Shown here piece after piece: positions 46,785-61,533 of a DNA stretch of 64,000 bases. Under the pieces are notes generated by a model that made no database searches, was not told the origin of the DNA, and saw nothing but the letters and a program-made list of their open reading frames with translations. Source of the DNA: a bacterium SCSIO 12643 (GTDB taxonomy: Bacteria; Bacteroidota; Bacteroidia; Flavobacteriales_G; Salibacteraceae). The first letter of the stretch is position 1. Each line of letters starts with the position of its first letter. Where the stretch lies: positions 1,922,001-1,986,000 of the forward strand of contig CP073750.1 in the NCBI GenBank assembly GCA_024398135.1, read 5' to 3'. A program made the translations under genes and the position numbers.

Positions 46785-46803
46785 ATTTAGAACGGTTCTA
46801 AAT
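46785..46803. promoter_or_regulatory. 19-bp palindrome upstream of the act operon
   Basis: ATTTAGAAC-G-GTTCTAAAT is a perfect inverted repeat with one central base, 56 bp upstream of the TATATTTG box of actA. It is a plausible binding site for a regulator of the respiratory operon. Confidence 0.5.
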
Positions 46804-56745: not shown

Positions 56746-58521
56746 ATGAGCAACACAGCACACGCAGCGGATCATCATCACGAAACGTTTATTAGCAAAT
56801 ACGTATTTAGTCAGGATCATAAGATGATTGCTAAGCAATTCCTGGTAACAGGGATGTTTATGGCAACTATTGGTATGATCATGTCTATTCTATTTAGAAT
56901 TCAAATTGCATGGCCTGGTGAAGGTTTTGCAATTGTAAATTTCTTCCTGGGAGATAAATGGGCTCCAGAGGGTATTATGGATCCAAACATGTATTTGGCT
57001 TTAGGTACCATCCACGGAACTATTATGGTATTCTTCCTTTTAACAGCTGGTTTAAGTGGAACATTTGCCAATTTATTGATTCCTTACCAAATTGGAGCTC
57101 GTGATATGGCTTCAGGATTTATGAATATGTTATCATACTGGTTATTTGCAGGTTCTTCTGTAATCATGGTGATCTCATTGTTTGTTGAGTCTGGACCGGC
57201 ATCAGCAGGTTGGACAGTTTATCCTCCATTGAGTGCATTACCACAAGCAATGCCTGGATCAGGTTTGGGTATGACATTATGGTTAGTGAGTATGACATTG
57301 TTCATCGCATCGTCTATGATTGGTGGTTTGAACTATATCGTTACGATCGTTAACCTTCGTACCACAGGTATGAAGATGACACGTCTGCCATTAACAATTT
57401 GGGCTTTATTGGTAACTGCAATTATTGGTTTGTTATCATTCCCAGTGTTATTATCAGCAGCACTATTATTATTATTTGATAGAAGTTTCGGAACATCATT
57501 CTACTTGTCAGATATCTTCATCGCTGGTGAGGCATTAGATTACAATGGTGGTTCTCCAATTTTATTCGAGCACTTATTCTGGTTCTTAGGTCACCCGGAG
57601 GTGTATATCATTTTATTACCTGCCTTGGGTCTGACTTCTGAGATTATTGCAACCAATGCACGTAAACCTATTTTCGGTTATAAAGCGATGATCGGTTCTA
57701 TTTTGGCAATTGCATTCTTATCATTTATCGTTTGGGGTCACCATATGTTCGTAACAGGTATGGATCCATTCTTAGGAAGTGTATTTACATTTACCACTTT
57801 GTTGATTGCAATTCCTTCAGCGGTAAAAGTATTTAACTACATTACGACTTTATATAAAGCAAATATTCAGTTTACGCCTGCGATGATGTTCTCAATCGGT
57901 ATGATTTCAACATTCATCTCTGGTGGTTTAACTGGTATTATTTTGGCGGATTCTGCATTAGACATTACAGTTCACGATACTTACTTTGTTGTCGCTCACT
58001 TCCATATTGTAATGGGATTCTCTGCTGTAAATGCGATGTTTGCAGGTGTGTATCACTGGTTCCCAAAAATGTATGGTAGAATGTTAAACCAAAAAATGGG
58101 TATAGCGCATTTCTGGTTGACTCTGATCTCTGGATATGGAGTATTCTTCCCAATGCATTTTTTAGGATTGGCAGGTGTACCTAGAAGATATTATACAAAT
58201 TCAGAGTTTCCATTATTCGACACTTTCGTTGACATGAACGTGTTGATGACAGTATTCGCAATTATTGCCGGGTTCGCTCAGGTGATCTTCTTCTTTAACT
58301 TTTTCTATTCAATTAGAAGAGGACCAAAAGCACCTCAAAATCCATGGAGAGCAAATACATTAGAATGGACTACTCCTGTTGAGCATATCCACGGAAACTG
58401 GCCAGGTGAATTACCTGTAGTTCATAGATGGGCTTACGATTATAGTAAACCTGGAAAACCAGAAGATTTTGTACTACAAACTGTACCTTTGGAGGACGGT
58501 GAAGTAGATGGAGAGCACTAA
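56746..58521 (+). CDS. coxA: Cytochrome c oxidase subunit I
   Basis: This is the haem-copper oxygen-reducing subunit (591 residues, about 12-14 helices). Low-spin haem and CuB ligands are seen in GTIHGTIMVFF (His), FWFLGHPEVYI (CuB His and the crosslinked Tyr), WGHHMFVTG (two CuB His) and HDTYFVVAHFHIVMG (haem His ligands). These mark an A-type oxidase. I chose the ATG at 56746; a TTG at 56740 would add two residues. It lies 16 bp after coxB; its stop overlaps the next reading frame by 14 bp. CoxC and CoxD are not seen nearby. Confidence 0.96.
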   Translation: MSNTAHAADHHHETFISKYVFSQDHKMIAKQFLVTGMFMATIGMIMSILFRIQIAWPGEGFAIVNFFLGDKWAPEGIMDPNMYLALGTIHGTIMVFFLLTAGLSGTFANLLIPYQIGARDMASGFMNMLSYWLFAGSSVIMVISLFVESGPASAGWTVYPPLSALPQAMPGSGLGMTLWLVSMTLFIASSMIGGLNYIVTIVNLRTTGMKMTRLPLTIWALLVTAIIGLLSFPVLLSAALLLLFDRSFGTSFYLSDIFIAGEALDYNGGSPILFEHLFWFLGHPEVYIILLPALGLTSEIIATNARKPIFGYKAMIGSILAIAFLSFIVWGHHMFVTGMDPFLGSVFTFTTLLIAIPSAVKVFNYITTLYKANIQFTPAMMFSIGMISTFISGGLTGIILADSALDITVHDTYFVVAHFHIVMGFSAVNAMFAGVYHWFPKMYGRMLNQKMGIAHFWLTLISGYGVFFPMHFLGLAGVPRRYYTNSEFPLFDTFVDMNVLMTVFAIIAGFAQVIFFFNFFYSIRRGPKAPQNPWRANTLEWTTPVEHIHGNWPGELPVVHRWAYDYSKPGKPEDFVLQTVPLEDGEVDGEH

Positions 58522-59182
58522 GCTTAATAAAACTATAAAAGGAAAGCCCTTGCCGTTGTGCAAGGGCTTTTTTGTTGTGCTATTATTGATGGTTTCAACT
58601 ACATCTATGTATGCACAATTTTTTGATTCTATTGAAACCAGTTTAAAATATAAACCCAGATTGGATTTAAAGCTGGAGTCCCGAAATTCTTTTTTTGCAA
58701 ATGAATGGGCAATCATAAGTGGTGCACGTGCGGGATTGGATTTTAATAAGACCTTTAAATTGGGAGTTGGTTACAGTTGGTTAAGAAAGGAAATTCAACA
58801 CGCCATTATTGTGGATGATAGGTCTGTAAATGCAGATTATTTCTTTCATTACGGGGTGTTCTATGCGGAGTATACCTTTTACAAAGTGAAGCCTTTTTCT
58901 ATGAGTATATATGCTTCTGTGGGAGGCGGAAGGTCCTGGGATAGATATATTGACCTCAATGGAGAGCGACAGACGGCTAATAGTAGTTTTGTTTTTGTGT
59001 ATGAACCCTATATGACTGGAATGGTTGATGTGCTAAAGTACTTCTCGGTTGGTGCGGGTATGGGTTTTAGATTGGTCGCTTCCGGAAGTGATTTTTCACG
59101 TAAGCGCCTGAATACATTAATTTATGTTTTTAAGCTCAAAATAAAACTACCCGAATTGCTGGATGATACCGTCCGCAAATAA
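58508..59182 (+). CDS. Secreted protein, probable outer-membrane beta-barrel, unknown function
   Basis: The 224-residue product has a hydrophobic stretch ending SMYAQ (signal peptide) and a mature part rich in amphipathic strands with aromatics (LKYKPRLDLKLESRNSFF, GVGYSWLRKEIQHAII, FSMSIYASVGGG). It overlaps the coxA stop by 14 bp when started at ATG 58508. A strong terminator hairpin lies within the first 22 codons, so the true start might instead be GTG at 58577, after the hairpin. Either choice keeps the signal peptide core. I recognise no family. Confidence 0.65.
   Translation: MESTKLNKTIKGKPLPLCKGFFVVLLLMVSTTSMYAQFFDSIETSLKYKPRLDLKLESRNSFFANEWAIISGARAGLDFNKTFKLGVGYSWLRKEIQHAIIVDDRSVNADYFFHYGVFYAEYTFYKVKPFSMSIYASVGGGRSWDRYIDLNGERQTANSSFVFVYEPYMTGMVDVLKYFSVGAGMGFRLVASGSDFSRKRLNTLIYVFKLKIKLPELLDDTVRK
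58543..58575 (+). terminator. Rho-independent terminator of coxBA, inside the next reading frame
   Basis: AAAGCCCTTGC-CGTTGT-GCAAGGGCTTT forms an 11-bp stem with a 6-base loop, followed by T3G at 58571-58574 (six T in a row at 58568-58573, part of the stem). It starts 22 bp after the coxA stop. Confidence 0.75.
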
Positions 59183-59201: not shown

Positions 59202-59261
59202 GTCGGCCCTTTTCTTTTGTCATTCATTTGTCACTAAATAGAATGAATCTAAATAAGGGAA

Positions 59262-60167
59262 ATGAAAAATTATATAATACTATCCATATTAATTTGGGTA
59301 TTAGGGTCATGTAGTGGTACGAAGAGTGAGGAAAAGGCTTCTACAGGAAAAGGAAAAAAGACTGCAGTGTTAATTGTGAATCACGGTTCTGTGGCGGAAT
59401 CCTGGCGTAATCAATTATTAGATATTGAGACAAAGATTGAGGATGAGTTATTGGCGCAACCTGGTATTGCGGACGTAAGAACTGCGTTTATGGAATACAC
59501 TGAGCCTTCTATTGCAACACGAATGAAGGAGTTTGACGAGGAAGGTTATGATGAAGTAGTTATTGTACCGGTTTTTTTGACTGTGAGCTCTCATTATTCA
59601 CATGACATTCCGGTCATTGTTGGTTTAAGTGCTGACCCTAAGATTAAGGAAGAGCTTAAGAAAGAAAAAATAGAAGTGTATCGTGCAAAAGCAAGAGTTA
59701 CAATTGCACCGCCATTGGATTACTCTTCGATTTTGAAAAAGAACGTAGAACGTAGAGTAAACGCTTTAAGTAAGAACCCGGACAATGAGGGAGTACTTTT
59801 AGTGGCATACGGTGATCAGCAATATAACCAGCAATGGGAAGAAATGGTGGAGAACATCGGTAAATATCTTAAGATGAAAACCGGACATAAGGATATTGCT
59901 TATGCATGGTGTGGTCATTTGGTTCATTATTCAACAGAGCCAACAATCAAAGGGATCGAAAAATTGCAGGAATTAAATGACAATGTCGTAGTGGTTCCTG
60001 TTCTTATTGCGAATGACCCATATTTCCAAAAGGATATTATCCAGAAGGCGGTTGATGCGGTCAAGGTGGATGATAACGTACTATATGTACAGGATGCTAT
60101 ATTACCTGATGACAACGTTAATAATTGGGTGAAGGACATTGCAATTAAAACCGTGAAAGGTTTATAA
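59262..60167 (+). CDS. CbiX/SirB-domain lipoprotein (extracytoplasmic chelatase-like)
   Basis: The 301-residue protein has a lipobox with Cys17 (VLGSC) and two related domains. The first (about 32-150) matches the CbiX/SirB class II chelatase fold: VLIVNHGSV with His41, and VPVFLTVSSHYSHDIP with His110 (and His113), where metal and tetrapyrrole ligands sit. The second (about 175-295) keeps the pattern but has LVAYGD and ANDPYFQKDI in place of the histidines. Known family members insert Co, Ni or Fe in the cytoplasm; this one should be outside, which is unusual. The NosR-like gene starts 4 bp after it. Confidence 0.85.
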   Translation: MKNYIILSILIWVLGSCSGTKSEEKASTGKGKKTAVLIVNHGSVAESWRNQLLDIETKIEDELLAQPGIADVRTAFMEYTEPSIATRMKEFDEEGYDEVVIVPVFLTVSSHYSHDIPVIVGLSADPKIKEELKKEKIEVYRAKARVTIAPPLDYSSILKKNVERRVNALSKNPDNEGVLLVAYGDQQYNQQWEEMVENIGKYLKMKTGHKDIAYAWCGHLVHYSTEPTIKGIEKLQELNDNVVVVPVLIANDPYFQKDIIQKAVDAVKVDDNVLYVQDAILPDDNVNNWVKDIAIKTVKGL

Positions 60168-60171
60168 TGAA

Positions 60172-61533
60172 ATGAATTTGAATAATATACCTGTAAAGAA
60201 GGTGCTTGCAACATTGATTGCAGGTGCCTTTTTTTTGTTTTTCTGGATAAATGGCCCGTTACAGGTTGCGGATGTTTTGGGAGATCTTGAAATTGAAGAA
60301 ACAGAATATGCCAAACCTATTTTAGTTGGAGCGCATCGTGAAACAAAGTCATTTGGTGAGATCGGTGATGTAGAAACGAGAGGAGATGGCTGGGTATTGA
60401 TCGACAAGCAAGATACTGGCGTTGATAATTTCGGCATGGTAGCTTTAGAAGGAGAAAATGTGGCGTTTGATCCGGAATATCAAAGGAGATTAGAGGGGAA
60501 GATTAAAAAGTTGATAGATGATCCTATACAGACGAAGCCGGTTATTGATGGAGACTTTTTATATATCGAGGTAAAGTGGAAGGATAAAACATATTATTAT
60601 GCCGAAAGCGGAGGTATTATTCGTCATATCAAAGGTTATGGTGGTCCTATCAATGTGGGAATTCTGATAAATGATAATGGCGCTTTAGAACGAGTGTATC
60701 ATATATCTTCTAAAGAAACACAAAGCTATCTGGTGAAGGTTCAGAAAGCTGGTTATTATAATACCTATGTAGATCTGCCCCTGGAAGAAATGCATGAAAT
60801 TGATGCGGTTTCGGGAGCGACTTTAACAACTACTGCAATAGCATCTACAGTTACGGATTTGGTGCATCAGTTTAGCGAGGAGTTTACCGATCATTTGGAT
60901 CAGGATAGATGGATGAGTTCTTTTACGGTCGAAGCAATAGATTCCTGGTTGTGGATACTCCATATTATGGTTATAGGATTAATGTTTGTTTATGGTTTCC
61001 AGAAAAAATACAAGAAATCGAAACGAGACATTAGAATCTTGAGCATCGTTTCTGTGGTTTATATTGGGTTTTTTATGAATAGCTCTTTTACCTATATTAG
61101 TTTTATTCATCCGTTTCTGGGAACTACCCTATCTCCATTGATTGCATTTTATGCGCTATTCTCCATTTTAGGGGGCATATGGGGACGAAACACCTATTGC
61201 ACATATGTTTGTCCATTTGGTCATGTTCAGCGCTTGAGCGTCCAAATTTCGGGTAAAAGATGGGTGTCTAAATTCTTTCTATCCAATAAGTGGGTGAGTG
61301 GAATTAGAAATGCGTTTGCTATTGTTTTATTAACCGGAGTTTTATTGGGTCTAAGATCCTGGGGAAATTATGAAGTTTTCCCTGATTTATTCGGATTGGA
61401 TTTTGCTTCGGGGTGGTTATTGGTAGGAATATCTGTAGTTTTAATTAACCTGAAGTTTCCATTTATCTGGTGTAGAATCGCATGCCCGACCGGAGCGGTG
61501 TTAGATGGAATCTCCACTGTTTGCAAGAAGTAA
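60172..61533 (+). CDS. NosR-like membrane flavoprotein with FMN-binding domain and two CX3CP motifs
   Basis: The 453-residue protein has one membrane helix (about 11-30), a periplasmic FMN-binding domain with the ApbE flavinylation motif DAVSGAT (211-217, with Thr217 the predicted covalent FMN site), then about five helices. The CX3CP motifs are Cys343/Cys347 in CTYVCPFGH and Cys434/Cys438 in CRIACPTGA. NosR and related proteins have this layout and move electrons across the inner membrane to the periplasm. No nitrous oxide reductase is nearby. Close linkage to the CbiX lipoprotein suggests a metal or tetrapyrrole redox job. Confidence 0.85.
   Translation: MNLNNIPVKKVLATLIAGAFFLFFWINGPLQVADVLGDLEIEETEYAKPILVGAHRETKSFGEIGDVETRGDGWVLIDKQDTGVDNFGMVALEGENVAFDPEYQRRLEGKIKKLIDDPIQTKPVIDGDFLYIEVKWKDKTYYYAESGGIIRHIKGYGGPINVGILINDNGALERVYHISSKETQSYLVKVQKAGYYNTYVDLPLEEMHEIDAVSGATLTTTAIASTVTDLVHQFSEEFTDHLDQDRWMSSFTVEAIDSWLWILHIMVIGLMFVYGFQKKYKKSKRDIRILSIVSVVYIGFFMNSSFTYISFIHPFLGTTLSPLIAFYALFSILGGIWGRNTYCTYVCPFGHVQRLSVQISGKRWVSKFFLSNKWVSGIRNAFAIVLLTGVLLGLRSWGNYEVFPDLFGLDFASGWLLVGISVVLINLKFPFIWCRIACPTGAVLDGISTVCKK

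Follow-up and report, generated by a model that had tools for sequence, protein, structure and literature searches.

A CbiX-type lipoprotein and a NosR-like membrane protein as a probable extracytoplasmic haem de-chelation module in Bacteroidota

The removal of iron by bacteria from haem whose ring stays intact is understood only in part. HmuS of Bacteroides is reported to remove haem iron beside HmuY and a TonB-dependent receptor in a reaction that depends on NADH (reduced nicotinamide adenine dinucleotide), with the Fe(II) depicted as passing to FeoB; in that report, the electron route is described as not yet known, and flavodoxin is mentioned as a possibility (PMC12583661). FetB/IhtB, of the Iht system of Porphyromonas gingivalis, belongs to a haem system that includes a TonB receptor, and it has been proposed to remove iron from haem (PMC10913741). 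A chelatase fold outside the cytoplasm is not unprecedented, as FetB/IhtB and the periplasmic CbiK of Desulfovibrio illustrate. Here we describe a two-gene unit from the bacterium SCSIO 12643 (contig CP073750.1, positions 1,922,001 to 1,986,000 of the forward strand; this whole stretch of 64,000 nucleotides is called the window), which consists of a CbiX-type lipoprotein and a NosR-like membrane protein. With a probability of about 0.58, we read the pair as an extracytoplasmic haem de-chelation module in which the electron needed to release Fe(II) comes from the membrane partner. The features of the pair are the following.

59262..60167, + strand: CbiX-type (class II chelatase) lipoprotein of 301 amino acids, from the list of open reading frames (ORFs), Pfam, alignment, and fold model.
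59310..59312, + strand: codon of Cys17, the expected lipid attachment site, in the lipobox pattern LGSC.
59382..59384, + strand: codon of His41, the first chelatase histidine, which lies in the HGS motif, is invariant in all 28 sequences, and aligns to the HGS histidine of CfbA.
59592..59594, + strand: codon of His111, the second chelatase histidine (HxxxDIP motif), likewise invariant in 28 of 28 and aligned to CfbA.
60172..61533, + strand: NosR-like membrane flavo/iron-sulfur (Fe-S) protein of 453 amino acids, with an N-terminal helix, an FMN_bind domain, and C-terminal membrane helices that carry two CX3CP motifs.
60802..60822, + strand: DAVSGAT flavinylation motif, residues 211 to 217, with D211, A212, G215, A216, and T217 the same in all 19 sequences aligned.
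61198..61215, + strand: first CX3CP motif, residues 343 to 348, from sequence and alignment.
61471..61488, + strand: second CX3CP motif, residues 434 to 439, from sequence and alignment.

The lipoprotein matches the Pfam CbiX family (PF01903) in two stretches with an E value of 1.5e-18 and 67.4 bits, where the cut-off is 22. The 28 aligned lipoproteins, the window protein included, come from two phyla and share 46 invariant positions; both chelatase histidines and several acidic residues are fixed, and among these positions are His41, Glu78, His111, Asp115, Glu138, and His219. In a profile comparison, the HGS and HxxxDIP motifs line up with the same motifs of CfbA, whose histidines at these places we take to be catalytic. 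The lipobox pattern is found in 22 of the 25 CbiX ORFs of the related loci described below, and the three misses are an ORF cut by a contig end, one with a late start, and a divergent second copy. An AlphaFold2 model of the lipoprotein, with a predicted local distance difference test (pLDDT) of 83.8, has the two-lobed chelatase fold and superimposes on SirB with a Z score of 18.9 (239 residues, root-mean-square deviation 3.7). Other structural matches are ferrochelatases (Z about 15), CbiK-P (2xvx, Z 14.8), and FetB (9b86, Z 13.6); the sequence profile reaches FetB with an E value of 0.077 and over an N-terminal stretch only. By score, modelled fold, and histidine pair, the lipoprotein is a class II chelatase of the CbiX family, and its activity is predicted. 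The nearest family models and structures are those of CfbA and SirB, and the lipoprotein is the one PF01903 protein found in its genome, both of which would suit an ordinary sirohydrochlorin chelatase of cobalt, nickel, or sirohaem metabolism. That role is very improbable in view of the lipoprotein signal, a score of 83.7 bits that does not reach the CfbA equivalog cut-off of 120 (NF033198), and the haem neighbourhood of the relatives.

The partner has Pfam matches to FMN_bind (E 4e-10) and Fer4_5 (E 2e-5), and both domains are matched in 19 of 19 NosR-like members. A D-x-x-(S/T)-G-A-T motif, an FMN_bind domain, and an ApbE, of which the genome has one, mark proteins flavinylated by ApbE, and the partner is predicted to be such a protein; Thr217 is, by analogy with other ApbE targets, presumably the attachment site of flavin mononucleotide (FMN). 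Family knowledge and hydropathy would place the FMN domain on the periplasmic side. NosR carries a C-terminal 2x[4Fe-4S] ferredoxin domain. No such C-terminal domain is among the Pfam matches of the 19 NosR-like members, and the window partner ends 14 residues past its second CX3CP motif. Its score of 34.2 bits against the NosR equivalog cut-off of 1000 (NF046105), together with this domain content, rules out that the partner is NosR proper. A widespread stand-alone family of such proteins was also rejected, since among 24 genomes with a match (296 Bacteroidota genomes searched) only the genome of SCSIO 12643 has it at full length and the other 23 show partial matches only.

An initial annotation, made from the letters of the DNA, had described two genes 4 bp apart, a lipobox at Cys17, a DAVSGAT motif, and two CX3CP motifs, and all of these hold: coordinates and strand are as given there, with both ORFs on the + strand and a gap of 4 bp, and the motifs stand at the residues listed above. 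Of its two CbiX histidines, His41 is correct and the one placed at residue 110 lies one residue further, at His111. The name NosR-like is apt for the FMN_bind domain and the CX3CP membrane part and fails for the NosR score and the ferredoxin domain. The annotation also saw no nos genes nearby, and the Pfam scan, which covered 18 window proteins, gave none.

The two genes are not together by accident of this genome. Twenty-four loci (L002-L025), mostly from Flavobacteriales and other Bacteroidota and also from several Gammaproteobacteria, some of them sponge symbionts, were fetched by scanning genome contigs with the lipoprotein alone. A NosR-like gene follows the lipoprotein directly and on the same strand in 22 of them, and in the remaining two (L020 and L024) the contig edge lies just past the lipoprotein. 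Because the fetching used one gene only, this adjacency indicates that the pairing is conserved across two phyla, and the conserved neighbourhood that the initial annotation had proposed as a check is present. Within the pair the gap measures -35 to +14 bp, the exceptions being L005 and L009 with their shortened partner ORF; shortened or split partner ORFs occur in L005, L009, L015, and L023. Closer to the source organism the module is patchy: of 60 related genomes, its own included, 5 carry the lipoprotein, and two of these (G297 and G296) contain the same DNA as L002 and L022.

What surrounds the pair in the relatives suggests its substrate. TonB-dependent receptors of one BLAST cluster occur in 17 of the 24 loci and HmuY genes in 14, with both in 13. 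All 20 HmuY proteins scanned from the 14 loci match PF14064, and all 19 receptors scanned of the 30 in the cluster (17 from the loci and 2 from the genome of SCSIO 12643) match TIGR01785 TonB-hemin, among other receptor models. In a genome of the window's family (G308, locus L107), an HmuY-like gene, CbiX, the NosR-like gene, a TonB receptor, and HmuY touch or overlap in this order; the CbiX there has 73% identity to the best-matching protein from the loci, and the first HmuY-like protein is named by BLAST only and has a type IX secretion tail as its Pfam match. The genome of SCSIO 12643 has two HmuY-receptor loci of its own away from the window, one in the order HmuY, TonB-dependent receptor, HmuY and the other in the order HmuY, TonB-dependent receptor, FeoA, FeoB, HmuY (L062 6242-13173, genome positions 1144241-1151172). 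The latter holds a haem-type receptor and a ferrous iron importer in a single unit. No match to CobN/HmuS (PF02514) was found in this genome, which is 97.93% complete. Because the surroundings offer HmuY, TonB receptors with matches to haem receptor models, and FeoAB, the neighbourhood points, with good support from the gene content, to haem and not to cobalt or nickel. This settles on one member of the list "Co, Ni, Fe or haem" given by the initial annotation, whose suggested check for haem and TonB-dependent genes is borne out by the counts above; its envelope unit of a chelatase fold and a membrane redox protein stands as to pairing and haem context, with the substrates narrowed to haem. 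No iht-type ABC (ATP-binding cassette) transporter genes were seen among the scanned neighbours of the pair, many neighbours being left unscanned. Two further arrangements were observed in these loci. In a Thiotrichales locus (L023 2187-9664), a TonB receptor, HmuY, CbiX, and the NosR-like gene are joined by a second, divergent CbiX that lacks a lipobox, and small proteins of a DUF6686 cluster, Pfam-tested in L006 only, occur in the haem loci L006, L007, L012, and L025.

The association between CbiX and HmuY extends beyond the close relatives. In the 296 genomes drawn from Bacteroidota, which were searched for PF14064 and PF01903, HmuY occurs in 96 and CbiX in 49. Fifteen of 60 CbiX places, in 14 of the 49 CbiX genomes, lie at most 5 kb from an HmuY match, where 0.1 places would be expected from the place numbers and genome sizes. 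The genome of SCSIO 12643 is outside these 14, and the cases examined include distant CbiX proteins that, by eye, have a plain signal peptide and not a lipobox. Four stretches of family f24 (L038, L039, L040, and L044) have such a CbiX with an apparent plain signal peptide, remote from the window protein, beside HmuY; the longer f24 stretches L115 and L116 also show a TonB receptor by CbiX and HmuY.

The partner is not the same in every lineage, a sister clade having a PepSY membrane protein in its place. In families f13, f16, and f18 and in G338 (f55), a PepSY_TM protein of 187 to 241 residues adjoins the lipoprotein in place of the NosR-like protein; two of these were Pfam-scanned and match PF16357, and the partner family aligns to the protein of locus L109 at 53 to 57% identity. 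The L109 operon reads HmuY-like, CbiX, PepSY, receptor, HmuY, which is the order of L107 with one gene exchanged. In a midpoint-rooted tree of 36 lipoproteins, in which two rows of unknown partner end at contig edges, a 100/100 branch has all 10 PepSY-linked proteins on the same side. With a single split among the 36 rows, a swap in repeated events was discarded, and the tree contradicts the nesting of the L109 lipoprotein within the NosR-linked clade. For VciB, a PepSY protein, an iron reductase activity outside the cytosol has been reported (PMC8238504), and a pepSY gene is named in a figure legend on haem loci of Porphyromonas (PMC12106395). Two unrelated membrane families with redox roles in one slot would be expected if the slot were one of electron supply, and we infer such a slot because the NosR-like and PepSY families exchange at one operon position. 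In three stretches of f18 (L065, L068, and L031), two CbiX lipoproteins flank a single PepSY gene, and one copy is strongly diverged.

Taken as a de-chelation module, the pair probably strips iron from haem outside the cytoplasm by the following route. HmuY would capture haem and the TonB-dependent receptor would import it, after which it would reach the CbiX-type lipoprotein and be held in the class II chelatase cleft by His41 and His111. As its family suggests, the NosR-like protein would pass electrons from the membrane or the cytoplasm through the two CX3CP Fe-S centres to the covalent periplasmic FMN and would reduce the haem iron from Fe(III) to Fe(II). Working in reverse, the chelatase would release Fe(II) and protoporphyrin, and the Fe(II) would be taken up through FeoAB, whose genes stand within an HmuY-receptor operon of this genome. 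A bolder version, which we hold tentatively and at a little under even odds, is that of a self-powered haem de-chelatase, namely a class II chelatase driven in reverse on the far side of the cytoplasmic membrane by a dedicated trans-membrane electron donor, with the donor swapped in evolution between NosR-like and PepSY proteins and the chelatase kept.

The window itself shows a different setting. Upstream of the pair are genes for alternative complex III (ACIII), coxB, and coxA, and then a small protein; downstream, on the opposite strand, are atpG and atpA (these two and the cox genes were named from sequence, without a Pfam scan).

58508..59182, + strand: 224-amino-acid protein, weakly outer-membrane-barrel-like (E 0.077), from the ORF list and Pfam.

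This protein overlaps the end of coxA, has no good Pfam match, and is kept near the pair in L002 and L111; it is an upstream neighbour of the pair in this genus and only a candidate member of the unit. In the window's genus, the pair thus stands apart from haem loci, between ACIII/cytochrome oxidase and ATP synthase genes. L002 (identical in DNA to L108) and L111 share with the window this position beside ACIII, coxB, and coxA, which would fit a respiratory role, in which the pair of this genus delivers or remodels haem for the adjoining ACIII/cytochrome oxidase complexes. We think this improbable, since among the loci examined such a placement is confined to the window's genus and most others have HmuY or a TonB receptor.

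A possible regulatory site precedes the pair.

59237..59253, + strand: degenerate copy of the palindromic box TTTAGAATNATTCTAAA with 3 mismatches, a candidate iron-regulator site, 8 nt before the start codon of the lipoprotein.

At up to 2 mismatches, the box is present in 6 of 188 regions before other genes (0.22 expected) and in 9 of 51 regions upstream of CbiX, receptor, and HmuY genes (0.06 expected), the latter count not being independent because the consensus was read off those same upstream regions. The box of the L002 orthologue has 2 mismatches. Sites with 3 mismatches are not rare in the 64-kb window (3 seen against 1.9 expected by chance), so only its place speaks for the window box, which is weakly notable by position and was set aside as proof of iron control there. 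The genome as a whole has 30 box sites against 9 for a reversed control. Twelve of the 30 were inspected, in 10 stretches, and the genes behind them include a receptor (siderophore receptor model, below cut-off), a sufA-like gene with sufB, a DUF6686 gene, and several genes without an evident iron link. The DUF6686 gene (L133 2669-3013) lies behind a perfect copy of the box, which suggests an iron link. Window positions 46786-46802, about 120 bp before the ACIII operon, hold the perfectly palindromic TTTAGAACGGTTCTAAA, which differs from the box by 2 mismatches.

Several observations weigh against the de-chelation module. The class II chelatases compared here (SirB, CfbA, and ferrochelatase) insert metal, and the electron could serve released Fe(III) rather than haem. 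Neither HmuY nor the receptor cluster is seen in the stretches examined of 6 of the 24 loci (L002, L005, L013, L014, L022, and L024), and in the source genome HmuY and the TonB receptor lie elsewhere and do not adjoin the pair; the upstream regions of its own HmuY operons have no good copy of the box. The receptors of L107, L018, L064, and L003 score below the TIGR01785 cut-off of 316.85 bits, and the best receptor model is siderophore-type for L064 and B12 for L003; given the HmuY neighbours, cobalamin or nickel use was nevertheless set aside as a first choice. HmuY accompanies a relative of the window lipoprotein in 15 of 19 genomes, the source genome included, and occurs in 81 of the 277 others (Fisher 2.3e-5), a genome-level comparison that ignores phylogeny and leans on family f24, since 11 of the 19 are weak matches and 10 of these are from f24. 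The structure model of the NosR-like protein is of low confidence (pLDDT 68.8), and a search with it gave no match at an E value of 0.001, the best matches being RnfG subunits (E 2e-3), which by length correspond to the FMN domain. An ordinary ferrochelatase is encoded in the genome, so the organism need not depend on outside haem. Finally, a different proposal makes PepSY proteins permeases for siderophores and not reductases (PMC7190382).

This last proposal leads to a second account, in which the lipoprotein merely binds or shuttles haem and the partner, as an iron reductase or permease, handles free or siderophore-bound iron. The PepSY family of the sister clade is tied to iron and siderophore uptake (PMC8238504 and PMC7190382), and the PDB entry of FetB is that of a haem-binding protein. 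The invariant chelatase histidines and acidic residues in 28 proteins from two phyla are more than a carrier seems to need, and the HmuY neighbours favour haem over siderophores; we judge this account unlikely, if the foremost of the alternatives. Hardly behind it, and unlikely as well, is a lipoprotein that works as a forward chelatase in metal exchange or insertion, loading for example Mn or Co into porphyrin extracytoplasmically while the partner keeps the metal reduced. Its fold and histidines match those of inserting enzymes, and, according to a 2026 review, FetB of P. gingivalis puts Mn into protoporphyrin and may take Fe out as well (PMC13402209). However, FetB has no detectable sequence relation to the lipoprotein over its body, insertion of a divalent metal requires by established chemistry no electron, and FeoAB and the iron-type box in the surroundings indicate a gain of iron.

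Haem de-chelation by the pair can now be set beside the known systems. FetB/IhtB is nearest in concept, being like the window protein a lipoprotein of class II chelatase fold. It differs in being CbiK-like, in having no sequence match over the body, and in working with the ABC transporter IhtC-E, and the portions of the literature consulted mention no membrane flavoprotein partner for it, unlike the window pair. CbiK-P of Desulfovibrio vulgaris is also a class II chelatase in the periplasm; the title of its entry is cobalt chelatase, and we know of no redox partner for it. SirB and CfbA, the nearest to the lipoprotein by sequence and fold, are cytoplasmic enzymes that act on sirohydrochlorin and are not known to have a lipobox or a redox partner. 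NosR shares the FMN_bind domain and the CX3CP membrane part with the window partner, which was seen without a ferredoxin domain or a Nos setting and which we would liken to PceC-type FMN-binding proteins. In Rhodothermus marinus, a cluster figure of a glycosidase paper shows cbiX beside hmuY (PMC6987092); there, cbiX is named for cobalamin biosynthesis, and it is connected with neither haem iron nor a redox partner. The main text of a survey of flavinylated systems (PMC8238504) does not contain the words chelatase or CbiX, and the literature searched, with most subscription journals outside it, yielded no description of a CbiX/NosR-like unit, as far as its accessible parts go, and no paper on CbiX together with flavinylation.

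With FetB/IhtB, CbiK-P, and HmuS as precedents, the new part seems to be that a CbiX-type enzyme has a partner of its own, of the flavin/Fe-S or the PepSY kind. In Bacteroidota and gammaproteobacterial genomes, the pair joins a chelatase and its candidate electron donor as a two-gene unit, which makes the reduction step directly testable, and the exchange of NosR-like and PepSY proteins suggests that flavinylated membrane proteins have a further, new role. If the self-powered version were true, this would be, to our knowledge, the first de-chelatase whose electron route is encoded next to it. HmuS is a CobN-like class I chelatase and membrane-bound, whereas the window pair has a candidate donor encoded next to a chelatase of the other class; a self-powered de-chelatase would then answer, independently and for a second time, the problem solved by HmuS.

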